Shown: piece after piece, positions 1,601 to 59,153 of the stretch | Position numbering within the stretch: the stretch's first letter is position 1 | Layout of the letters: each line of letters opens with the position of its first letter | Source: ANME-2 cluster archaeon | GTDB lineage: Archaea > Halobacteriota > Methanosarcinia > Methanosarcinales > Methanocomedenaceae | Assembly (NCBI GenBank): GCA_014237145.1 | Contig: JAAXOC010000032.1 | Coordinates: 1-64,000, forward strand | Reading direction: 5' to 3' | Length of the DNA stretch: 64,000 bases | Notes under the pieces: model-generated | What the model saw: only the letters and a program-made list of their open reading frames with translations | Told to the model about the DNA's origin: nothing | The model's database searches: none | Made by a program: the position numbers and the translations under genes

Positions 1601-4195
1601 ATGTCTATAACACAACTGCCAAAAGAATATAACCCGCAGGAGGTCGAACCCAGGTGGATGGGGGAATGGCAAGATTCGATGAACTACTTTGACTGGGATT
1701 CTGAGAAACCGCAGTATATTATTGATACGCCACCGCCCTACCCCACAGGCAATTTCCACATAGGTAATGCCCTGAACTGGTGCTACATAGATTTCGTTGC
1801 CAGGTACAAACGGATGCGCGGATATAATGTGATGTTCCCACAGGGTTGGGACTGCCACGGCCTGCCTACCGAGGTCAAGGTGGAGGAGATACACAACATC
1901 ACCAAGAACCAGGTGCCGCGTGCTGAGTTCAGGCGGCTGTGTGAAGAACTGACAGCCGGTAACATAGAGAAGATGCGCGGTACTATGCGCAGGCTGGCCT
2001 TCAGCATCGACTGGAGCAATGAGTACATCACCATGAAGCCAGAGTACTACGGCAAGACCCAGCACTCCTTTGTACAGATGTACAATAGCGGCCGGATATA
2101 CCAGGCAGACCATCCTGTGAACTGGTGCCCCCGCTGCGAGACAGCCATCGCATTTGCCGAAGTGGAATATGATGCCAGGCAGACCACTTTGAACTATTTC
2201 CATTTCGATGAACTCGATGTGGCCACCACCAGGCCCGAACTGCTGGCAGCCTGTGTGGCAGTGGCAGTGAACCCTGACGATAACAGGTACAACAAGTATG
2301 TGGGCCAGGAAATTGAGGTACCCATATTCGGCCATACGGTAAAGGTGCTGTCCGATTCTGAGGTTGACCCCGTATTCGGTACAGGCGTGGTTATGATATG
2401 TACATTTGGCGATAAGCAGGATGTGAGATGGTGGGCCGAACTGGGGCTGCCGATTCGCAAAGCCATTGACAAACAGGGCATCATGACCTCCATTGCAGGC
2501 AAATACGAGGGGATGAACCTCACCGAGTGTAAGGAGGCCATCACAAGGGACATGAAGGATGCAGGCATTATCTATGAGCAGGAGAGCCTGGACCAGAATG
2601 TGGGACTGTGCTGGCGCTGCAAAACGACCATCGAGATACTTTCAGAGCGGCAGTGGTTCGTGAAGATAGATGCTGACGACATCATATCAAAATCATCTAA
2701 GATCAACTGGGTGCCGCCCTATATGGAGATACGGCTCAAGAACTGGACCGGTACAATGGAATGGGACTGGTGCATATCCAGGCAGCGTATCTTTGCCACA
2801 CCCATCCCGGTGTGGTACTGCAATGAGTGCGGCGAGGTTATGGTGGCAAATGAGGAATGGCTGCCCCTGGACCCTAACAACTCCCAGCCGCTTGAAGCCT
2901 GTAAGTGCGGCTCCACTTCGTTCTCACCCGAGGAGGACGTACTGGATACCTGGATGGACTCGTCCATCTCGGCCCTGAACGTATCAGGCTGGCTGTCACG
3001 TGACGATGTGAGGCTGCCTACCCAGATGAGGCCACAGGGTCATGATATCATCAGGACCTGGGCTTTCTATACCATCCTGCGCGCAAGCGCACTAACGGGT
3101 CTACCCCCCTGGGACGATATTGTAATAAATGGCATGGTGCTGGGTGAGGACGGGCAGAAGATGAGCAAGAGCCTGGGCAATATCGTGATGCCTGAAGAAG
3201 CGGTCAAGCAGTATGGTTCGGATGCCTTCAGGCAGTGGGCTGCCATTGGCGGGTCTACGGGGTCAGATATCATGTTCAGCTGGAAGGATGTAGTAGCTGG
3301 AAACCGTTTCCAGCAGAAACTCTGGAGCATTGTCAGGTTCTGCATGCCACATCTTGAGGCCTTCCAGCCCGGTGGTGATGTGGAATACAGGACGATCGAC
3401 CGCTGGCTGCTGAGTAAACTGAACACCCTTATCAAGGAAGCCACTGACAGCATGGATGCATACCAGTTCGACGAGACCATGAAGAATATAAGGGGTTTTG
3501 CATGGGAGACCCTGGCAGATAATTATATTGAGCTGATCAAGTCCAGGTTGTACGGTGAAGATGTCGATGCCAGGCGTGCGGCACAACAGACCCTGTATTT
3601 TACAGTGGATGCCCTTGCACGGATGCTTGCACCTTTCATCCCCTATTTCGCAGAGGAAGTGTTCTCACTTTTGCACCGGCAGAGTGTGCACCAGTCAAGC
3701 TGGCCGGATGTGGATGAAGCTGCCATTGACCCGGAGGCAGAGGTTTCAGGCGAACAGGTGAAGGAGATCACGGCCACAATCAGGCGCTTCAAATCTGATA
3801 GGGGCATGGCATTGAATGCGCCACTGGGAAGACTCAGGGTATACGGGCGCATTGAGGATGTGACCGATATTGCGGGTACGGTGAGCGCTGATATTGAGGT
3901 GATGGAGGGGGAGCCCGAGTTCGAGTACCGGGTCAGCGGCGTGAAGCCCAGGATGAGCATTATCGGTCCGAAGTTCAGGGACAGGGCCGGGGCCATCATA
4001 GGTGCGCTGAAATCAGCCGACCCTGGATCAATCGCACAACAGGCAGCACGCGGGGTCGTTGAACTTGAGGTTAAGGGTGAGACGATTACGCTGGAACCTG
4101 CGGCTGTGGAATTTGAGCGTGAGATCATGTCAGAGGGACATGCGGTTGATGTGCTGGAGATCGGGGATGTAATGGTCGTGGTTGAGAGAGGATAA
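1601..4195 (+). CDS. valS: Valyl-tRNA synthetase
   Basis: A class I aminoacyl-tRNA synthetase that charges tRNA-Val with valine and edits misactivated threonine. The HIGH-type motif is HIGN at residues 53-56 within [16 protein letters not shown]. The KMSKS motif starts at residue 520 ([11 protein letters not shown]). Between them lie the CP1 editing region ([19 protein letters not shown]) and several CxxC zinc-knuckle pairs (WCPRCE, CWRCK, CNECGE). The anticodon-binding alpha-helical domain follows the KMSKS loop. The length of 864 residues is normal for archaeal ValS, which lacks the long coiled-coil tail of bacterial forms. A clear AGGAG ribosome binding site lies 8-12 bp before the ATG. 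The gene appears intact. Confidence 0.97.
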
Positions 4196-5626: not shown

Positions 5627-6922
5627 TCAAGGCTCCTTACTGTCAGCTAACTCTTCCAGTGCATTCTTGTATTCTTCCAGGATAAAACCCACGAATCCAT
5701 CAAGGTTCTCCAGCCGTCCCACTTCGAGCATGTCAAAGTACCTGTTCTTCATATCAGGGTCAAAAACAAATAGCGGGTATCCCGCCTTTAGCAGTACCAT
5801 CGAATGTATTATCCTTGTGACCCTGCCGTTGCCGTCCTTAAAAGGATGAACTGTTACAAGCAGGAAATGTATGAATGCACCCAGTAGCAGGGGATGTAAG
5901 TGTTCCTTGTACATCTTGTAAAAATTGACAATTGCTACAATTTCATATTCGATCTCTTCAATGGTGGCCGGAAGTTTTAATTTTGAACCAAGAATCCTTT
6001 TTCCGGGAGAGGCATAGTATTCCCCAGATTCTTCAATCAGGCCTCCCATCAGTATCCGGTGATACAATTTTATGTTCTCGCTATTCGGTTCAAGGTCCAT
6101 GTCCTGCCCAAAGTCCTTACTAAAGTCCATACTAAGTCCCTTAATATGATTATTCAGATGTTTAACAGCTTCAAAGGTGTTCCTTATCTCTACAATTTCC
6201 CTGGGAGTAAGCCATGTTGGCAGGTCTTTCATTACCCTTTCCACATCGTCTTTATTTGCAGTATTTCCCTCAGTTACCGTGGTTGAATATATATGCATCT
6301 TAATAACTAGTTCCATGAGCTCATTCGAACCTGAAATCCTTTCTTTTATAGTATCAATCTCATTGATAAGTCTGCTATATTTCCCTGTCTTTTCTGCAAG
6401 GGAGCAGGGGGGCTGCATCAGGGTGAGGTAGAACAGCGTCCTATCATTCAGGTTAAAGTCAATGCAGAGGGGTTTTTGTTTGATTATCCTGACAAACCGA
6501 TTTCTTTCAAGTATCCTGATGTATTTTTTGAGGGTATTTTTTGAATTGCCTGTGTATTCATGCAGTGTTTTAAGAGTCGAAGGACCGTGCCCTATTGTTG
6601 AAAATACAATGTCCTGTGCTCTTTTGGAAAGTAAAATGTTATAGTCAAGACCTTCTTTCATTGACCACAGTAAAAATGCCATATAATTATTGAGGCTGGG
6701 GTTCCCGCGGTTAATATTGTAGACTGTCTGTTTTTTAGTTGTGTTCCTTTTCCTGATAACCAGTTCTGCATCAATTAGTTCGCCCAGCCGTTTGTAGAGC
6801 ATCCTGTTGTTCAAGTTCTCAAAAAATATGTTAACTCTCAATGTTGCTGACAGTTCGTTAAATGTGGCACTGTTTGTGAAATGTAAATACAATAGTGTAT
6901 CCCATTTGGTTGGTGTGGGCAT
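5627..6922 (-). CDS. Fic family protein with N-terminal winged-helix regions
   Basis: The protein has 431 residues. The Fic core motif HPFKDGNGR is at residues 359-367; it binds nucleotide and the histidine is the catalytic base for AMPylation or related transfer. Upstream, STTVTEGN (213-220) fits the inhibitory helix motif [S/T]xxxE[G/N], with its Glu placed to block ATP, so this is a self-inhibited Fic with the inhibitory helix before the core. Residues 1-150 look like two winged helix-turn-helix segments, suggesting that it binds DNA, possibly its own promoter. No separate antitoxin gene is adjacent. A 32-bp tandem repeat lies about 65 bp upstream of the start. Its target protein is unknown. 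Confidence 0.88.
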   Translation of the reverse strand: MPTPTKWDTLLYLHFTNSATFNELSATLRVNIFFENLNNRMLYKRLGELIDAELVIRKRNTTKKQTVYNINRGNPSLNNYMAFLLWSMKEGLDYNILLSKRAQDIVFSTIGHGPSTLKTLHEYTGNSKNTLKKYIRILERNRFVRIIKQKPLCIDFNLNDRTLFYLTLMQPPCSLAEKTGKYSRLINEIDTIKERISGSNELMELVIKMHIYSTTVTEGNTANKDDVERVMKDLPTWLTPREIVEIRNTFEAVKHLNNHIKGLSMDFSKDFGQDMDLEPNSENIKLYHRILMGGLIEESGEYYASPGKRILGSKLKLPATIEEIEYEIVAIVNFYKMYKEHLHPLLLGAFIHFLLVTVHPFKDGNGRVTRIIHSMVLLKAGYPLFVFDPDMKNRYFDMLEVGRLENLDGFVGFILEEYKNALEELADSKEP

Positions 6923-6985
6923 ATATGGAAAAAATGATGCTATAGTATATAAGTTTGATTAAGTTTTATGTATTATTTATATCTT

Positions 6986-7049
6986 ATAGGCATGTATCTA
7001 TCAAATTAAATACACATATAGGCATGTATCTACTAAATTAAATACACAT
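6986..7049. repeat. 32-bp tandem duplication upstream of the Fic gene
   Basis: Two head-to-tail copies (6986-7017 and 7018-7049) differ at only two positions. Each begins ATAGGCATGTATCTA and ends AATACACAT. The pair lies in the promoter-distal part of the leader of the minus-strand Fic gene, whose start is at 6922. It could be a paired operator or simply a replication slippage product. Confidence 0.75.
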
Positions 7050-7953: not shown

Positions 7954-8033
7954 TAACCTTAATGTAACAGGCGTTGTAACCTTAATTTAACAGGAGCTGT
8001 AGCCTTAATGTAACAGGAGCTGTAACCCTAATG
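7954..8033. repeat. Three and a half 23-bp tandem repeats
   Basis: Units lie at 7954-7976, 7977-7999 and 8000-8022, with a partial fourth at 8023-8033. The core is CTTAATGTAACAGGAGCTG. The array fills the space between the radC stop codon and the convergent small gene, and its last partial unit covers that gene's stop codon (8028-8030). No spacers are present, so it is not a CRISPR array. Confidence 0.8.
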
Positions 8034-8324
8034 TGGTGTGATCATTGCCCAGTCCAGTAACAAACCATCCAGGCTCATAAGCACTATCTTACTTGAACCA
8101 TCGGGTAGGTCGTAGGGCAACTCCTCATACCCGATATAAAGTTCATCCCCCACATTGATCTCTGGCGGTGCCTGCTTAACCTTCCCGAAAAAGTATTTCT
8201 CTTTTGTTTTAGAGTCAAGGACGCTCACATTCCGCCATGCTTTAGCTTCAAGCACATTCAGTACAACGCACTTTCTTTTGTACTTTTTCACTTCACCGGA
8301 TTTTGCACTAATCATAAACATCAC
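8028..8324 (-). CDS. Conserved small hypothetical protein (possible beta-barrel)
   Basis: The protein has 98 residues. It is rich in alternating hydrophobic and charged residues (KKYKRKCVVLNVLEAKAW; INVGDELYIGYEELPYDL), a pattern suggesting a small OB- or SH3-like beta-barrel, which is inference only. The start at 8324 begins MMFMIS, so the initiator could be either of the next two Met codons. It is not part of an obvious operon; thyA follows on the same strand about 90 bp downstream in genome order but is transcribed separately. I do not recognise the family. The 3' end overlaps the 23-bp tandem repeats. Confidence 0.6.
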   Translation of the reverse strand: MMFMISAKSGEVKKYKRKCVVLNVLEAKAWRNVSVLDSKTKEKYFFGKVKQAPPEINVGDELYIGYEELPYDLPDGSSKIVLMSLDGLLLDWAMITPH

Positions 8325-10299: not shown

Positions 10300-12249
10300 T
10301 CATAAACCTGCAGTCCGCATAATTTCCCTGATCCTCATACCAATACCTATAAACACTGCAATCAGCACAAGAGCGATTACTGCATAGACCGAAAGATAAG
10401 GAATTACCACATATATCAGATATGCGAATAAAAAGAGCGTCCCGAGCAGTACCGAAACTCCTATCGGGTCTCTGCGGACAGGCTCCCCCGGATAATTTTT
10501 CCGTCGATCATCGATCATATCTTCTGCGGTCTGAGCCGCTGTAGATGTACCCTGTGATATATTCAATATCAAGAGGCATATCCTATCAATGATAATACTT
10601 AGCGCTTCAGCCGGATTCTTGCTGAACCATGCGGCAAAGTTCTTAACTACGATCGCTGCATCAGCAGGCCACTGCGCACCTCTTGCAAGTGGATTGTTGA
10701 TGAACCATGTAAAAAGTACACTACCTTTGCGGTAGAACCAATCAGTATCAAGACTGATAGTATTTTCCGGATGGAGTTTATTTTTCAACAACAGAAAACC
10801 TGCATATGTAAACAACATCAATTGAAGCGTTCCAATCAGGTGTCCTGATGCATATGGTGCATAATCAGCAACAGCCGATGGATAAGGCAAAATATTATAT
10901 AATAGGGACGGATAAACGCCCAGCAAGATACACAGAAATGCAGCGATTCCCATACCAATTAACATATTCATAGGTGGATCCTTTGCCTTTATACCGGCAT
11001 CCTTACCAAAGAATGCAAAGTAAGGAAGTTTCAGACCGACAGATAGAAATGTCCCGACCGCAGCAACTTCCAGCATAAGGAAGATCAACATATTATGGTC
11101 CATCGCAGCTGCATGTATAATTATAGATTTACTTATAAAACCGTTAAATAACGGCGCACCAGAGATAGATAAAGCAGCGATCATATAGAAGATCATTGTA
11201 AGGGGCATGACCTTATAGAGACCGCCAAGTTCAGTAAGTTTGCTTTTACCTGTCATATAGATGATAGCACCGGCACCCATGAACAGCAGTCCTTTGTAAA
11301 GGATATGACAAAAGGCATGCGCAACCGTACCATCAATAGCCATTTCGCTTACTACGCCTATGGTACTTGCGGCAATCCCGACACCACAGACCATATAACC
11401 TACCTGACTTACTATATGGTAGGCAAGAAGTCTTCGTATATTATTCTCAAGTATTGCATAAATAACACCATATAGCGCCATGATGGCACCAAGATACATA
11501 AGGATTGCAACGCCATCTATAGTAAAGTCAGAAAAACTTCTTACAAGCACATATACAGCAGTCTTTGTGGTAAATGCAGTCATAAAGACAGCACCTGTGA
11601 TCGTAGCCTCAGGATATGCATCCGGCAGCCAGGCATGGAGTGGCGGGACTGCAGCATTGATAATAAAACCCAAAAGGATCAATATTGTTGCAGGAGACAC
11701 ATAATCGAAACCATTAAAAGCAATCGATCCGCCGCTTTCCTGCATATATAGAATGATACCACCGAGCAGCAACACCCCGCCAACAACATGTACTATTAGA
11801 TACCTGAATCCTGCATCGATCGACGCCTTTTTGCGCCGGTACCATACTAAAAAGACAGATGCCCATGCCATAACCTCCCAAAAGATAAATACGCTGAAAA
11901 GATCACCAGCAAATACCACACCCAGTGCGCTGCCTATATACAGAAACGCAGCAATGTGTTCACCAGTCTCCTTTACATGCAGTGCATAGAATGTCATGGC
12001 AAGAGCAACGATCACGAACACGTATCCAAAACACTTGCTCAGCAGATCGACCCTGCCTAAGATCAGTTCGTATTCCATGAAGGGATGGTACCAGTAGGTA
12101 CCGTGTTGCATGAAATAGACATCGATAATAGCAATGATCGGTATCAACAGGAGATATGCCTGACGTACCCGCCCTTTAAAAAGCGGTATAAGGAGTGCAC
12201 CGACAATAAATATCGCAGCAGGCGGTATAGTAATGAAGTCACCTGTCAT
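10300..12249 (-). CDS. Antiporter-like subunit (NuoL/MrpA-N/MrpD superfamily), long form
   Basis: The protein has 649 residues and about 16 membrane segments, homologous to the proton-translocating subunits of Mrp antiporters and complex I. The TM5 glutamate is present (Glu125 in FIFWEVMAW), as is the PLHAWLPD motif at 203-210. The normally conserved lysine just before it is replaced by Asn198 (GFIINAAVPPLHAWLP). The C-terminus is extended by a long amphipathic region (about 490-590) and two more membrane segments, like the NuoL/MrpA tail. It is the last gene of the operon, with its start overlapping the Glu/His-repeat gene by 11 bp. It probably forms one of three antiporter modules in the complex. 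Confidence 0.88.
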   Translation of the reverse strand: MTGDFITIPPAAIFIVGALLIPLFKGRVRQAYLLLIPIIAIIDVYFMQHGTYWYHPFMEYELILGRVDLLSKCFGYVFVIVALAMTFYALHVKETGEHIAAFLYIGSALGVVFAGDLFSVFIFWEVMAWASVFLVWYRRKKASIDAGFRYLIVHVVGGVLLLGGIILYMQESGGSIAFNGFDYVSPATILILLGFIINAAVPPLHAWLPDAYPEATITGAVFMTAFTTKTAVYVLVRSFSDFTIDGVAILMYLGAIMALYGVIYAILENNIRRLLAYHIVSQVGYMVCGVGIAASTIGVVSEMAIDGTVAHAFCHILYKGLLFMGAGAIIYMTGKSKLTELGGLYKVMPLTMIFYMIAALSISGAPLFNGFISKSIIIHAAAMDHNMLIFLMLEVAAVGTFLSVGLKLPYFAFFGKDAGIKAKDPPMNMLIGMGIAAFLCILLGVYPSLLYNILPYPSAVADYAPYASGHLIGTLQLMLFTYAGFLLLKNKLHPENTISLDTDWFYRKGSVLFTWFINNPLARGAQWPADAAIVVKNFAAWFSKNPAEALSIIIDRICLLILNISQGTSTAAQTAEDMIDDRRKNYPGEPVRRDPIGVSVLLGTLFLFAYLIYVVIPYLSVYAVIALVLIAVFIGIGMRIREIMRTAGL

Positions 12250-12637
12250 AATAATCCTCCTCCTTCATGACCAGATTATGTCCATACGCCTTTGCCCCCA
12301 GACCGAGTATTACACACATTATTAATCCGAATATCGCATTGAAAATTGGTATCGTTTCAAATACGAACGGAGCATGTTCTGCATGTTCTTCAACAGCTTC
12401 ATGTTCTGCATGTTCTTCAACAGCTTCATGTTCTGTATGTTCTTCAACAGCTTCATGTTCCATATGTTCTTCAAGAGATTCGTGTTCTGTATTTGCCTCA
12501 TCTACTTCATGCTCTGCTGAAGGTGCAAACTGATTAACAACTCCCATAAGACATACAATAATTAAACTTAAGTAAAGCAAATATACCAATTTTTTTACTG
12601 TTTTTGGATTCTCCAGCCATCTTTCTAAGAACCACAT
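12239..12637 (-). CDS. Two-TM protein with Glu/His nine-residue repeats, in Mrp operon
   Basis: The protein has 132 residues. Membrane segments lie at about 18-36 and 95-117. Between them, residues 51-88 hold four near-identical nine-residue units, such as EHEAVEEHA, plus a partial unit. Positive residues at both ends favour a cytoplasmic location for the termini and an external repeat loop (inference). It has about 13 His and more than 20 Glu in the loop, which could bind metal ions or protons. It is translationally embedded: its start is one base after the stop of the upstream antiporter gene and it overlaps the downstream one by 11 bp. It does not correspond to any standard Mrp subunit that I recognise. 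Confidence 0.8.
   Translation of the reverse strand: MWFLERWLENPKTVKKLVYLLYLSLIIVCLMGVVNQFAPSAEHEVDEANTEHESLEEHMEHEAVEEHTEHEAVEEHAEHEAVEEHAEHAPFVFETIPIFNAIFGLIMCVILGLGAKAYGHNLVMKEEDYYDR
12374..12487 (-). repeat. 27-bp in-frame tandem repeats encoding EHEAVEEH(A/T/M)
   Basis: Four 27-bp units plus a partial unit lie in the coding region of the small antiporter-operon protein. The central units are almost identical at the DNA level. The frame is preserved, so copy-number change would lengthen or shorten the loop by nine residues without breaking the gene. Confidence 0.9.
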
Positions 12638-50464: not shown

Positions 50465-51226
50465 CTACTTAACGAACAGCTCACCCACACCGTCAACGAC
50501 TACGTCGCCAACATACTTGGTGAACTCCACGCCGTCTATGGCCTCGATGCCCTCACGCTGGTACACAGGCATCAGATCCTTGACCGTACCTTTAACGATA
50601 ATGGTACCCTTGGTCATCTCACTGCCAGGCATGTCAGTATCGCCCTCAATAACGATCTTACCGCCCTTGTTGGACACCCCCGGCATGATACCGGCATTGC
50701 CCTTAATGATGATCTCGCCGCCGCACATGTGCTCGCCAACAAAATCATTGGCATTTCCGAACACCGTGATCTTGCCGCCGCGCATGCCGCAGGCCTCGCC
50801 GCGATAGCCAGCACCCACATAGTAGTTTGCATCGCCCTGGACATTGATCTCGCCGCCAGTCATCTCCTGGCCGACCCAGGAATCAGCATTACCTTTGATG
50901 GTGATGGTGCCGCCCTTCATCTTAGCGCCGCATCTCATATCCACATCGCCGTTTATCATAATGAGCCCGGCAGTCATAGCCTCACCGATACGCTTCACCC
51001 TGTTCACATTGCCGTTTATCTCTATCTTTACGTCATCCGCAGCATCAGCGCTACCGTCAACCTTGATATCGAACAACTCTGACAAAGGTCGGGGCGCATT
51101 TCCCTCGTATGCCACAAGTGCGCCGATCTCATCAGCGCTCTTGCCTGCAAAATTGTCGGGTTTTATCGTTTCAGCTTCAACAGATATCTTAAACTGTTCT
51201 TTTGGTACTAAAGTAACTGTTTGCAT
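50465..51226 (-). CDS. fwdC: Formylmethanofuran dehydrogenase subunit C
   Basis: The protein has 253 residues. Residues about 75-230 form a beta-helix of GxxxxGxxxxG repeats, for example GGTITIKGNADSWVGQEMTG and GGEIIIKGNAGIMPGVSNKG, like the C-terminal domain of glutamate synthase. The N-terminal part binds the FwdA/FwdB core. It is the last gene of fwdDBAC, 14 bp after fwdA. The complex interconverts CO2 and formylmethanofuran, the first step of methanogenesis from CO2 or the last step of methane oxidation. Confidence 0.95.
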   Translation of the reverse strand: MQTVTLVPKEQFKISVEAETIKPDNFAGKSADEIGALVAYEGNAPRPLSELFDIKVDGSADAADDVKIEINGNVNRVKRIGEAMTAGLIMINGDVDMRCGAKMKGGTITIKGNADSWVGQEMTGGEINVQGDANYYVGAGYRGEACGMRGGKITVFGNANDFVGEHMCGGEIIIKGNAGIMPGVSNKGGKIVIEGDTDMPGSEMTKGTIIVKGTVKDLMPVYQREGIEAIDGVEFTKYVGDVVVDGVGELFVK

Positions 51227-51240
51227 CCTTCACACCTCCT

Positions 51241-52944
51241 TTACTGGTACCCTGTCTCAAACACGACCGGATGCTCTACATACTCATCCTGTACCATGTA
51301 GTTGGCCATATTCACGGAATAATATTTCTTGAACTTCATCTTCAGATCTTCCATCATCCGCTCATGTCCATCCGCAGGCGCAGTAGCTTTTACCCAGTAG
51401 GTTCTGCCCTTGGGCACAGCAGTGATCTCACCGTCTTTTACCACAATCTCACCGCCCTTGATAGTATAAGCAGCGTGCCTGAATGCAGCTTCCACCTTAT
51501 CAAACTCCATAGTGGCATCGGTCTCATCAGGCTTAATATCATAGATGGCAATGTCTGCATCAGCACCCACACCAAGATGTCCTTTGCCCAGTTCGATTAT
51601 TCCCTGCACCTTAGCATGTGCGGCCCTGGTCTTGATAGCAATATCATACCAATCCAGTTCCCTGTCAATGCCGGCAATGCTTGTGCGCTCAAAGGTCAAC
51701 TCAGCTATCTTTGCCATTTCTTTTTCACGCCTCTTCTGGCTCATTAGCATTGTCATGACCATCGGGTAGTTTACATACGGCCCGCCGTTGGGGTGGTCCG
51801 TGGTCATCAACACCTGCCATGGGTCCTTGGTCAGCAGGGCCAGTTCAAGTCCGATCGCCCACATGATGCCGTGGATATAGCTCTGTGGATGGTATTCCAG
51901 TGGTGTAACACCTGACGAATCCTCAAGCTCTACATCACCGTTTGACCACCTGGCCTTAAGCAGCCTGGCATTGGCATACTGCACCGGACCGTCTGCGGTC
52001 ATTGTGGTAGCACTGCCGAACACCAGCTGGCCCATATCAATGGTTAAAAAGTCGTTCTTGTTCAGGTAATCAGCAATTGGTTCTGACTTTGATTCGAAAT
52101 CTCCCCAGTGGTTGCCGCCCCACGCATTGAACTGCACATGGGTTACGTGCAATGACTGACGATCCCGCTTGGATTTAATGTCCTTACAGACATCAAAAGT
52201 TGCCAGCGTGGTCTCGTAGTTACCTGGCTTACCCAGGTTATTACAGTGCAGGTGTATACTGTGGGGAAGGTTCAATTTCTCGTTCGCTTCTGCCAGTTGC
52301 TTGACTATCTGCCTGGGCGTAACCTCAAAGTTAGGAACTGGGTCATCCAGTCCAGATACGTTTTTACCGAATCCCCATGCTTCGCCGCCGCCAGGGTTCA
52401 CGATCTTGATACCCCAGCCGCGTGATGCCAGCAATCCCCATGCCACATATGCCGCCAGCCTGTCCAGATCATCCTCACGGATTGCGTCCATTACCATCCA
52501 GTTACTGCCGAACAGGGTCAGGCCGGCTTTATCAATGATGGGTATCTCTTCCAGTTCCTCATGGGTATGCCTTGCTTTCAGGATAGGAACAGCAGCCTCG
52601 AAAGCCGTGGTATATCCCATCTCAGCATACCCGTATCCCATAGAATATACATTTGGCACAGTATATCCGGTACGGGGCCGGGTCACTTTGGTCCTGGGTT
52701 TATTGTTCAGGCGTGAATCATCAGGACGCATAATACGTCCCACATTCACCTTACTGCCAGCGATATGAGTATGTGCATCCACACCGCCCGGATAGACCAG
52801 CCGGCCTCCGGCGTCTATGGTCTGGGCACTGCCGCCCACGCTGTCCACTATCTTGCCGTCCTTAACAGCAATATCCATCATATCCCCGTTGATATTATTG
52901 ATAGGGTCATACACAGTTGCGTTCTTTATCAGCATTTCACTCAT
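51241..52944 (-). CDS. fwdA: Formylmethanofuran dehydrogenase subunit A
   Basis: The protein has 567 residues of the amidohydrolase fold with a dinuclear zinc centre. DAHTH (56-60) gives the first metal ligands. Later ligands are expected in HSIHLHCNNLG and SLHVTHVQFN; LLMTTDHPNGGPYVN holds the late Asp. The subunit moves the formyl group from formate onto methanofuran after CO2 is reduced in FwdB. It overlaps fwdB by 4 bp and is followed by fwdC. Intact. Confidence 0.96.
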   Translation of the reverse strand: MSEMLIKNATVYDPINNINGDMMDIAVKDGKIVDSVGGSAQTIDAGGRLVYPGGVDAHTHIAGSKVNVGRIMRPDDSRLNNKPRTKVTRPRTGYTVPNVYSMGYGYAEMGYTTAFEAAVPILKARHTHEELEEIPIIDKAGLTLFGSNWMVMDAIREDDLDRLAAYVAWGLLASRGWGIKIVNPGGGEAWGFGKNVSGLDDPVPNFEVTPRQIVKQLAEANEKLNLPHSIHLHCNNLGKPGNYETTLATFDVCKDIKSKRDRQSLHVTHVQFNAWGGNHWGDFESKSEPIADYLNKNDFLTIDMGQLVFGSATTMTADGPVQYANARLLKARWSNGDVELEDSSGVTPLEYHPQSYIHGIMWAIGLELALLTKDPWQVLMTTDHPNGGPYVNYPMVMTMLMSQKRREKEMAKIAELTFERTSIAGIDRELDWYDIAIKTRAAHAKVQGIIELGKGHLGVGADADIAIYDIKPDETDATMEFDKVEAAFRHAAYTIKGGEIVVKDGEITAVPKGRTYWVKATAPADGHERMMEDLKMKFKKYYSVNMANYMVQDEYVEHPVVFETGYQ

Positions 52945-54242
52945 GATGAAGCCCCCTTTATCTCTCTTACCTTTGCAATTATCTTATCCAGCACTTCTTC
53001 ATCAGATGGGAAGTCCACATCCACCAGCTTGCGCATCCGCAGACTCACAGAATCCATCCTGTATGCTGTACCTTCCAGTTCCACGCCAGATACCTTGGTT
53101 GGTATCACGATATTTGCCATCTCGGTTGTCGGGTTGTGGAACGGGTCAACCTGTATTACAGGCACCTTGCTCATCCGGGCAATGGACTGGGCGGGGAAAT
53201 GTGCTCCTGCATCCCCGGCAATGATCATAGCTGAATCAATCTCTTCCCGCATCAGCAGGTCATTGGAACATGTCTCACCCGGATTATAGTATGGAATGCC
53301 CCTTGACATATCCACTGCATTGGCAAAACCTGTCTCCCAGGCGCACACCTGACCGAATCCGGTCACATTATAATGACCGCGCATGGGTAGGATACTGTGC
53401 TTGCCATGGGCATTCAGTTCGGTGATAAGGGACACCGCATTATCGATGTTCTTATACTTACCACGGCTCTGTGTCAGACCCATACCAAAGTATACCATGC
53501 CGTACTTCGCACCCTTCATGGCCTCTCCAAGTTCAACTAATTTCTCTTTGGGCACACCGCCTACGCTATCCGGGATCACGTCGGCTTTATCAGCAACAAC
53601 AGCCCGCAGGGCCGAAATAACCATATAGTCCTCTCCCGGATTCACCTGTACATACTCGTCAGCCATCTCGGCAGTATCGGTCTTTCTGACATCAAATACC
53701 ACGACTTTCCTGGATTTACGTCCCTTGGTAGTGAAAAATCCTTTGTTAAATACTGAATACCTGCTCATATGCCTGGGATGGGCCTGTACCGGGTTGCACC
53801 CCCAGAATACTACCAGATCGGTCCTGTTGGCGAACTGGCCCAGGGTACCGGTGGGTAGTCCCTTCTCGTGGACACCCAGGGCAGACGGCCCGTGACACAC
53901 ACTGGCTGTATTATCTATAATTCCTCCCACCTCTTCGTTGAGCAGGACACCTTTCTTCATCATCTCGCATACGCCTGATGCCCAGCCGTACAACAGTGGG
54001 CGCTTGGAATTGGCAAGTATCTTTGCAGACTCATTAATGGCCTCATCATAGGATACTTCCCTGAACTCACCGTTCTTGTCGTCCCGCATCATGGGCGCCT
54101 TGATCCTGTCATGGCCCATGATCTTGCTTGTGCCTATCTTGCAGGCATGTTTCACATCCACTACCTTATTGTTCTCCACTTCCACTGTCAGGTCATCACA
54201 CAGACATCCGCAGAATGGACAGAGTACATCTTTGATTATCAT
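52941..54242 (-). CDS. fwdB: Formylmethanofuran dehydrogenase subunit B
   Basis: The protein has 433 residues. The N-terminal CPFCGCLCDDL (8-18) with Cys34 binds a [4Fe-4S] cluster. NTASVCHGPSA has Cys116, the expected tungsten or molybdenum ligand; it is Cys, not selenocysteine. Molybdopterin-binding segments include VFWGCNPVQAHPRHMSRY and MRGHYNVTGFGQV. It reduces CO2 to formate with ferredoxin electrons. Whether W or Mo is used cannot be read from the sequence. It is 12 bp after fwdD and overlaps fwdA by 4 bp. Confidence 0.96.
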   Translation of the reverse strand: MIIKDVLCPFCGCLCDDLTVEVENNKVVDVKHACKIGTSKIMGHDRIKAPMMRDDKNGEFREVSYDEAINESAKILANSKRPLLYGWASGVCEMMKKGVLLNEEVGGIIDNTASVCHGPSALGVHEKGLPTGTLGQFANRTDLVVFWGCNPVQAHPRHMSRYSVFNKGFFTTKGRKSRKVVVFDVRKTDTAEMADEYVQVNPGEDYMVISALRAVVADKADVIPDSVGGVPKEKLVELGEAMKGAKYGMVYFGMGLTQSRGKYKNIDNAVSLITELNAHGKHSILPMRGHYNVTGFGQVCAWETGFANAVDMSRGIPYYNPGETCSNDLLMREEIDSAMIIAGDAGAHFPAQSIARMSKVPVIQVDPFHNPTTEMANIVIPTKVSGVELEGTAYRMDSVSLRMRKLVDVDFPSDEEVLDKIIAKVREIKGASS

Positions 54243-54254
54243 ATCCTACCTCCC

Positions 54255-54632
54255 TCATTTTAACCTGGCCATGAGTTCAGGCATGGTCGGTGCTTTTTCA
54301 TCAGTTGGCTCAACGACTGCGGAAATACCCTTGAATCCGGGCATTCCGCATCCTTTTGTATCCGGGTCTACAACCGCATTGGCCCATGGTCCCATGGGTA
54401 TGAACACCAAACCATCCGGGTTGCCATCACAAATTGCCATCGGCACTACAACACTTCCGTGATCTGTAGTTACCTTGACATTGTTTCCGGGCTCAACACC
54501 TAACGAACTGGCATCTCCTGAGTTCATCTCACAATACGCTGCAGCATCAAAATACGCTTGTGAAGTCTTGTTTTCCAGATTACAACCCTGGTTAACAGTC
54601 CTTCCTGAAATGAAAGTTGCATTCAAATTCAT
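54255..54632 (-). CDS. fwdD: Formylmethanofuran dehydrogenase subunit D
   Basis: The protein has 125 residues. It has the molybdopterin dinucleotide-binding C-terminal fold: GRTVNQGCNLENKTSQAYFD, AAYCEMNSGDASSLGVEPGN, and IPMGPWANAVVDPDTKGCGM. With FwdB it completes the pterin-binding enzyme. It is the first gene of fwdDBAC. GAGGGAAATAA just upstream serves as ribosome binding site. The leader contains three 36-bp direct repeats. Confidence 0.94.
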   Translation of the reverse strand: MNLNATFISGRTVNQGCNLENKTSQAYFDAAAYCEMNSGDASSLGVEPGNNVKVTTDHGSVVVPMAICDGNPDGLVFIPMGPWANAVVDPDTKGCGMPGFKGISAVVEPTDEKAPTMPELMARLK

Positions 54633-54652
54633 TTATTTCCCTCATTTAAACT

Positions 54653-54760
54653 AAGTTAACGACTCTACCAAAGTCACTTGTCACGTGTAAGTTGACGACT
54701 CTACCAAAGTCACTAGCCACGTGTAAGTTGACGACTCTACCAAAGTCACTAGTCACATGT
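54653..54760 (-). repeat. Three 36-bp direct repeats in the fwd operon leader
   Basis: Head-to-tail units lie at 54653-54688, 54689-54724 and 54725-54760, with only one to three differences between units. On the coding strand each contains ACACGTG, then GTGACTTTGGTAGAGTCGT, in which GACT and AGTC can pair as a small stem-loop. The array ends 21 bp before the fwdD ATG, and its upstream edge lies about 20 bp from a TATA-like box. It could be a multi-site operator or a set of leader RNA hairpins. Confidence 0.85.
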
Positions 54761-54778
54761 AAGTAAACCTTCGACTTT

Positions 54779-54792
54779 CTTATTTAAAAAGG
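54779..54792 (-). promoter_or_regulatory. Probable TATA box of the fwd operon
   Basis: The minus-strand CCTTTTTAAATAAG is the only strong TATA-like box between fwdD and the divergently placed upstream gene end. With usual spacing, transcription would begin near 54755-54762, at the edge of the three direct repeats. Confidence 0.45.
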
Positions 54793-58502: not shown

Positions 58503-59153
58503 TTATTGTTCCTTCAGGATCCTTCTGGCTGCTATCATACGCTGAAGGACCGTGAGGTGGGATATCACTGCCACCACCAGGACAGCCCAGTGCAATAATC
58601 CCGTAAATGCGCCCAGGATGATCAATATCATACGCTCGGCCCGCTCTGCCACCCCGATGTTCAGTACCCCTGTCCCGCCAGCCTCTGCCCTTGCCCTTGT
58701 ATAACTGACAAGCAGTGACCCCGTAAGTGCTAAGCCACCAAGGAACCAGTCATTTTCGATATAAGGTGCTAAGCCACAAAAGAGCCAGTCATTACCGATA
58801 TAAGGTGGAAATGCCGCATGCCCTCCCCACATGATACCTAAAAACACGGCAGCATCGGCATATCTATCTGATACCGAATCAAGGAGGCCACCGAACTTAG
58901 TGACCCGGCCGTTCTCCCTGGCCACGGCCCCGTCAAGCACATCAAAGAAACCGCCAAGTAGCAGCATCAATCCTGCAATTACCAGATTTCCGGCTGCAAA
59001 ATATAGTCCGGCTGCAATGCAGAATACCAGGGCCAGGATAGTTACTGTGTTAGGATTTATCCTGCTGAATATCCTTGCTATGGGTTTTACCCAGTCCGTT
59101 AATATATCCTTTTTCCTATTGAGCAATACATTCCTCCAGGGACTTTCAGGCAA
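58503..59153 (-). CDS. CDP-alcohol phosphatidyltransferase (probable archaetidylinositol phosphate synthase)
   Basis: The protein has 216 residues and about six membrane segments. The catalytic motif D(x2)DG(x2)AR(x8)G(x3)D(x3)D is complete: Asp71, Asp74, Gly75, Ala78, Arg79, Gly88, Asp92, Asp96. The enzyme joins a CDP-archaeol lipid to a polar alcohol; archaeal forms of this length usually make archaetidylinositol phosphate. Residues about 117-142 contain a short internal duplication (YIGNDWLFCGLAP and YIENDWFLGGLAL), also visible in DNA. It overlaps the upstream small gene by 8 bp. Confidence 0.87.
   Translation of the reverse strand: MPESPWRNVLLNRKKDILTDWVKPIARIFSRINPNTVTILALVFCIAAGLYFAAGNLVIAGLMLLLGGFFDVLDGAVARENGRVTKFGGLLDSVSDRYADAAVFLGIMWGGHAAFPPYIGNDWLFCGLAPYIENDWFLGGLALTGSLLVSYTRARAEAGGTGVLNIGVAERAERMILIILGAFTGLLHWAVLVVAVISHLTVLQRMIAARRILKEQ

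Follow-up and report, generated by a model that had tools for sequence, protein, structure and literature searches.

Fwd, formylmethanofuran dehydrogenase, is a core enzyme of the archaeal methane-oxidation pathway in ANME archaea, and nothing was found in the literature on the control of the fwd genes in these organisms. The locus described here raises the question of what a tandem array of 36-bp units does between the promoter and the first gene of an fwdDBAC operon. The array lies in a window of 64,000 nucleotides, by which we mean the whole stretch of DNA that was analysed. The leaders of close relatives differ from that of the window by whole 36-bp units, and they form a natural copy-number series (1, 3, 4) in which leader function can be tested.

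The array, its promoter and its operon

Past the array the genes follow each other in the order fwdD, fwdB, fwdA, fwdC. The features of the region are, from promoter to operon end:

54781..54788, minus strand: TATA box of the fwdD promoter, TTTAAATA, recognised in the sequence
54756..54762, minus strand: predicted transcription start zone, 19-25 nt past the TATA box
54721..54756, minus strand: repeat unit 1 (36 bp), begins GTGACT
54685..54720, minus strand: repeat unit 2 (36 bp), begins GTGGCT
54649..54684, minus strand: repeat unit 3 (36 bp), begins GTGACA, final 3 nt diverged
54646..54756, minus strand: candidate leaderless upstream ORF VTSDFGRVVNLHVASDFGRVVNLHVTSDFGRVVNLV, 36 codons and TAA, the sole frame open in all seven genus-type leaders
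54639..54643, minus strand: Shine-Dalgarno-like GAGGG ahead of fwdD, within the 13 nt that separate the stop of the upstream ORF from fwdD
54255..54632, minus strand: fwdD, formylmethanofuran dehydrogenase subunit D, PF01568 (Molydop_binding domain), E 5e-17
52941..54242, minus strand: fwdB, formylmethanofuran dehydrogenase subunit B, TIGR03129, above cut-off
51241..52944, minus strand: fwdA, formylmethanofuran dehydrogenase subunit A, TIGR03121, above cut-off
50465..51226, minus strand: fwdC, formylmethanofuran dehydrogenase subunit C, TIGR03122, above cut-off

The fwdD product also matched NF042908 with an E value of 1.2e-34, yet stayed under the curated cut-off of this FwdD model. The GAGGG ahead of fwdD is invariant throughout the aligned leaders of the family.

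Tandem Repeats Finder gave the array the best score of the window (192), with a 36-bp period, 3.2 copies and 91% matches at 54652-54768. This confirmed the tandem 36-bp leader units ahead of fwdDBAC that had been described in a first-pass annotation of this DNA, the array occupying 54649-54756 of the minus strand between the TATA box and fwdD. Compared pairwise, the three units differ at 1, 5 and 6 of the 36 positions. The ACACGTG word, which the same annotation had assigned to each unit, stands at the start of units 2 and 3, unit 1 reading ACATGTG; the palindrome is not conserved, since relatives have TACGTG or CATGTG at that word. The GTG is invariant in all 18 unit copies of the seven leaders.

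Other repeats occur in the window. Two further arrays lie outside genes or at their edge, at 6985-7049 (32 bp, two copies) and 7954-8034 (23 bp, 3.5 copies), and 5.4 repeats of a 27-bp unit are found at 12373-12517 within a minus-strand ORF (12239-12637). An in-frame 39-bp tandem duplication at 58727-58807 lies within the minus-strand ORF 58503-59153, the product of which was judged by eye to be CDP-alcohol phosphatidyltransferase-like.

In Methanolobus psychrophilus the spacing between TATA box and transcription start is about 19-22 nt (PMC5378194), and the start was predicted from this spacing in a related methanogen, stretched to 25 nt. Because 19-25 nt past the TATA box corresponds to 54756-54762, the predicted start falls in the first bases of the array, and the array start at 54756 agrees with the earlier proposal that the units begin where transcription should begin. 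The first GTG is 33-34 nt past the first T of TTTTTAA in the seven leaders, and the stretch CACATCCTTTTTAAATAAG at the TATA box is mostly kept in the leaders of family f1. From the position of the promoter, the upstream ORF is predicted to be on the same transcript as fwdD.

A second element was seen between the TATA box and the start, at 54764-54778, where five of the seven genus-type leaders carry AAGTCGAAGACTT, with the inverted arms AAGTC/GACTT; this palindrome is degraded in the window itself. At the same place between TATA box and start, a leader from genus g4 (L024) has the near-perfect palindrome GTAGAAGACTTCTAC.

Occurrence among relatives

PMC9012536 lists S7142MS1 (PYCK01) under ANME-2a Methanocomedens and HR1 (MZXQ01) under ANME-2b Methanomarinus. 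Since the closest fwdD genes among named records were those of ANME-2 archaea, including the listed Methanocomedens S7142MS1, the window appears to belong in or next to Ca. Methanocomedens (ANME-2a). The unit was present before fwdD in all six genomes of this genus that were examined, i.e. the window and five others, with three copies in the window, G001 and G003, one in G002 and G005, and four in G004. A contig of G016, binned to another genus, also carries the unit at the same place, again in three copies. In G003, units two and three are swapped relative to the window (G000), a sign of recombination among the copies.

The comparison of fwd leaders in close relatives, suggested in the first-pass annotation, gave a result with two sides: every relative within the genus had the unit, and outside the genus it was not found, neither in the rest of the family nor, searched as the exact unit pattern, in 147 further genomes out of a sample of 149 from the class. 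Viral contigs did not contain the pattern either. The core GTGACTWTGGTAGAGTC, searched with up to 3 mismatches, was no commoner than its reversed control elsewhere in the six genus genomes. Given its presence throughout the genus, the failure to find it outside and the lack of a dispersed excess, the unit is specific to this genus and associated with a single operon. In the other genera of the family the fwdD leaders are extended too, with different sequence. In a second family of the order, to which Methanoperedens belongs, several members have short leaders. Position and genus-wide conservation together make it well supported that the array is a transcribed leader element of the formylmethanofuran dehydrogenase operon.

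The G016 locus (L107, G016:C102:1-7772) is a mosaic. Up to about position 5700 its nearest match is a different genus of the family, with 73-96% identity per 300-nt interval, and past this point, where the promoter, the array, fwdD and fwdB are located, it is 93-99% identical to the window. The mosaic could be explained either by a transfer of the fwd operon together with its leader, or by an assembly chimera.

A candidate upstream reading frame

The array would make up the first part of the fwdDBAC transcript, and we tentatively favour the possibility that it is an upstream ORF, leaderless and coupled to fwdD. This reading falls short of an even chance, and it ranks first, ahead of an operator array, a near-neutral repeat and an RNA element, in this order. 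The repeat, its location, the copy variation within the genus, the open frame and the surplus of synonymous variants are observed; the transcription start, the translation of the ORF, its coupling and any regulatory effect are all predictions from the DNA sequence. A frame beginning with GTG is open through all units in each of the seven leaders, and the other two frames contain stops. The 36-nt unit equals 12 codons and the encoded peptide is (V[TA]SD[FY]GRV[VID]NLH)n, ending at a TAA (54646-54648) that lies 13 nt ahead of the fwdD ATG and stands at the same place in all seven leaders. The array alters by whole units alone, with no frame-breaking indels among these leaders.

Most differences between copies are silent in this frame: seven of the 11 distinct copy variants are synonymous, two others are conservative replacements (F/Y, V/I), and a stop is created by none. 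With the numbers of transitions and transversions kept fixed, the synonymous count gave P values of 0.008 for this frame and 0.065 for the best of six frames, and a BLOSUM-type score gave 0.0015 and 0.005, respectively; these values are optimistic because the frame, the nulls and the comparison with FwdD described below were all picked post hoc, on data already inspected. The variants are few and non-independent, as copies recombine. The mean divergence of the array in equal-copy pairs of three-unit leaders is about 0.055 per site, versus about 0.14 at four-fold sites of the neighbouring genes. Homogenisation between copies, instead of selection, could be responsible for this low divergence.

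In the proposed mechanism the GTG, lying at the very 5' end of the transcript or a few bases from it, would serve as the start codon; ribosomes would then translate one to four copies of the 12-codon unit and terminate at the TAA, beside the Shine-Dalgarno-like GAGGG. The terminating ribosomes would be either handed to fwdD or retained there, and translation of the leader would thereby set fwd expression. Since 36 nt is divisible by three, gain or loss of copies leaves the stop in place, and for this reason the proposal would explain the drift in copy number between species. A point against the proposal is that the start would be a GTG without a Shine-Dalgarno sequence. In a related methanogen, about 16% of transcripts are leaderless (PMC5378194), and Methanosarcina mazei is reported to have small ORFs in 5' UTRs, plus a leaderless one in an sRNA (PMC11456600). 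Like those small ORFs, the candidate is a short frame in the 5' UTR of an operon in the order Methanosarcinales, where leaderless small ORFs are known, but unlike them it consists of a variable number of 12-codon repeats, has a GTG start and is confined to one genus. If the upstream ORF is real, archaea would have a leader ORF built of codon-phased tandem repeats.

Some of the results do not favour a coding function. Codon usage failed as support for a gene: the CAI-like value of the upstream ORF is 0.647, versus a mean of 0.771 and a minimum of 0.719 for the genes of the window, which places it below every one of them and level with random synonymous coding. Random 36-mers of the composition of the unit have an open frame in 89% of cases, and one that starts with NTG within the first 6 nt in 15%. 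The sister genera g2, g3 and g4 of the family lack the frame, an open frame in the g2 leaders having been rejected because an indel or stops break it; conservation of the candidate frame ends with the close relatives.

Operator, repeat and RNA alternatives

The units could, with a probability we regard as low, be three operator sites, as the first-pass annotation had considered. Each unit, with its GACT half-sites facing both ways, would then be bound as DNA by a transcription factor that acts just downstream of the start in a Tfx-like manner. The precedent is the fmdECB operon of Methanothermobacter, where Tfx binds downstream of the promoter (PMC3087415, citing Hochheimer et al. 1999). The two systems are alike in having a candidate control region just downstream of a formylmethanofuran dehydrogenase promoter, and they differ in that the operon here is of the fwd type, the family of the Tfx C-terminal domain was not found in the genus, and the site here is a candidate recognised in the sequence. 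More GACT/AGTC words than expected occur in the leaders of the genus of the window and in one of two leaders from an ANME-2b-type genus, and another genus of the family (g2) has a covarying inverted repeat across the predicted start. This excess, together with the g2 repeat at the start, makes a dedicated factor for GACT-type sites possible.

The g2 repeat itself (e.g. in L022 and L023; alignment A1) has the form GACCnAACATA ... TATGTTAGG, with a few compensatory changes, and appears to straddle the predicted start of fwdD, which suggests a DNA operator in that genus.

Several results reduce the probability of operator sites in the array. Tfx is the one known fmd-specific regulator, and PF14601 had no match in the six genus genomes (positive controls gave matches in two of 14); Tfx was rejected as the regulator, its homologue not being found in the genus. 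No regulon is apparent, as near matches to the unit core elsewhere in the six genomes do not exceed the control pattern, and the cores are not beyond chance in the leaders of sister genera, except for the G009 leader (P 0.01-0.04), the core being rejected on these grounds as a motif of the whole family. Finally, the 36-bp spacing corresponds to about 3.4 helical turns, which is not a whole number, so that operator sites would face different ways. A link of the array to W/Mo or methanofuran, which had been offered as an example of the signal, was not found.

Next in rank, and likewise improbable, comes a tandem repeat that evolves almost neutrally in a 5' UTR free of constraint, with slippage or unequal crossing over adding and removing copies. 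This would fit with the range of one to four copies within one genus, the exchanged unit order between G000 and G003, the genus-specific sequence and the presence of other short arrays in the window. However, all 18 copies in the seven leaders stay recognisable, divergence in the array is about 0.4 times that at four-fold sites, such a repeat would leave the surplus of synonymous variants unexplained, and the coincidence of the array start with the predicted transcription start would be accidental.

The three RNA hairpins of the first-pass annotation fared worst among these alternatives, and 5' UTR stem-loops that make the mRNA more stable or serve as the binding site of a regulator are, in our estimate, distinctly unlikely. 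The GACT/AGTC pair is present in all three units of the window, and in each unit in most genomes, but the folding stability is unremarkable: a single unit has a z of +0.2 against dinucleotide shuffles (55th percentile), whole leaders have z values of -0.6 to -2.0 versus shuffles, and multi-copy leaders reach only -0.4 to -1.1 versus a repeat-preserving null. The unit and the leaders thus fold about like shuffled sequence, and the predicted structures differ between relatives. Inspection of individual changes within the genus gave mixed results: a variant in G004 improves the stem (T-G to C-G), whereas a C to G change breaks it in two genomes, although in the single-copy genomes another hairpin register accommodates the C to G change. 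Rfam returned no family, the only match being one to GAIT at chance level (E 1.8, under the gathering score). An RNA element would agree with the extended leaders in other genera of the family, and long UTRs are common in Methanosarcina (PMC2838876). Catabolic operons of Methanosarcina acetivorans have 5' UTRs about as long as this leader (51-137 nt), but no direct repeats or dyads were found there (PMC2838876), whereas direct repeats fill the leader here.

To return to the upstream ORF, the unit peptide NLHVTSDFGRVV resembles residues 51-62 of FwdD, NVKVTTDHGSVV, with P of about 0.001 versus shuffles. The FwdD segment scores 34 against the unit peptide, and three unrelated protein segments of the window score 30; since real protein segments come this close, the likeness is a weak lead and quite likely due to chance. 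The unit peptide had no credible match to a protein family or solved structure, and no other credible match elsewhere in the genome. It is very improbable, in our view, that a repeat-built leaderless leader ORF with a species-variable number of units controls fwd by translation through a peptide that imitates a motif of the molybdopterin-binding domain of FwdD and might act as a sensor of, or a competitor in, the assembly of cofactor or subunits. In the same genome as the array, another locus (L106, G000:C73) contains two very similar fwdD-like genes, at 3517-3939 and 6080-6487, on either side of a gene for one protein with C-terminal repeats that look dockerin-like by eye.
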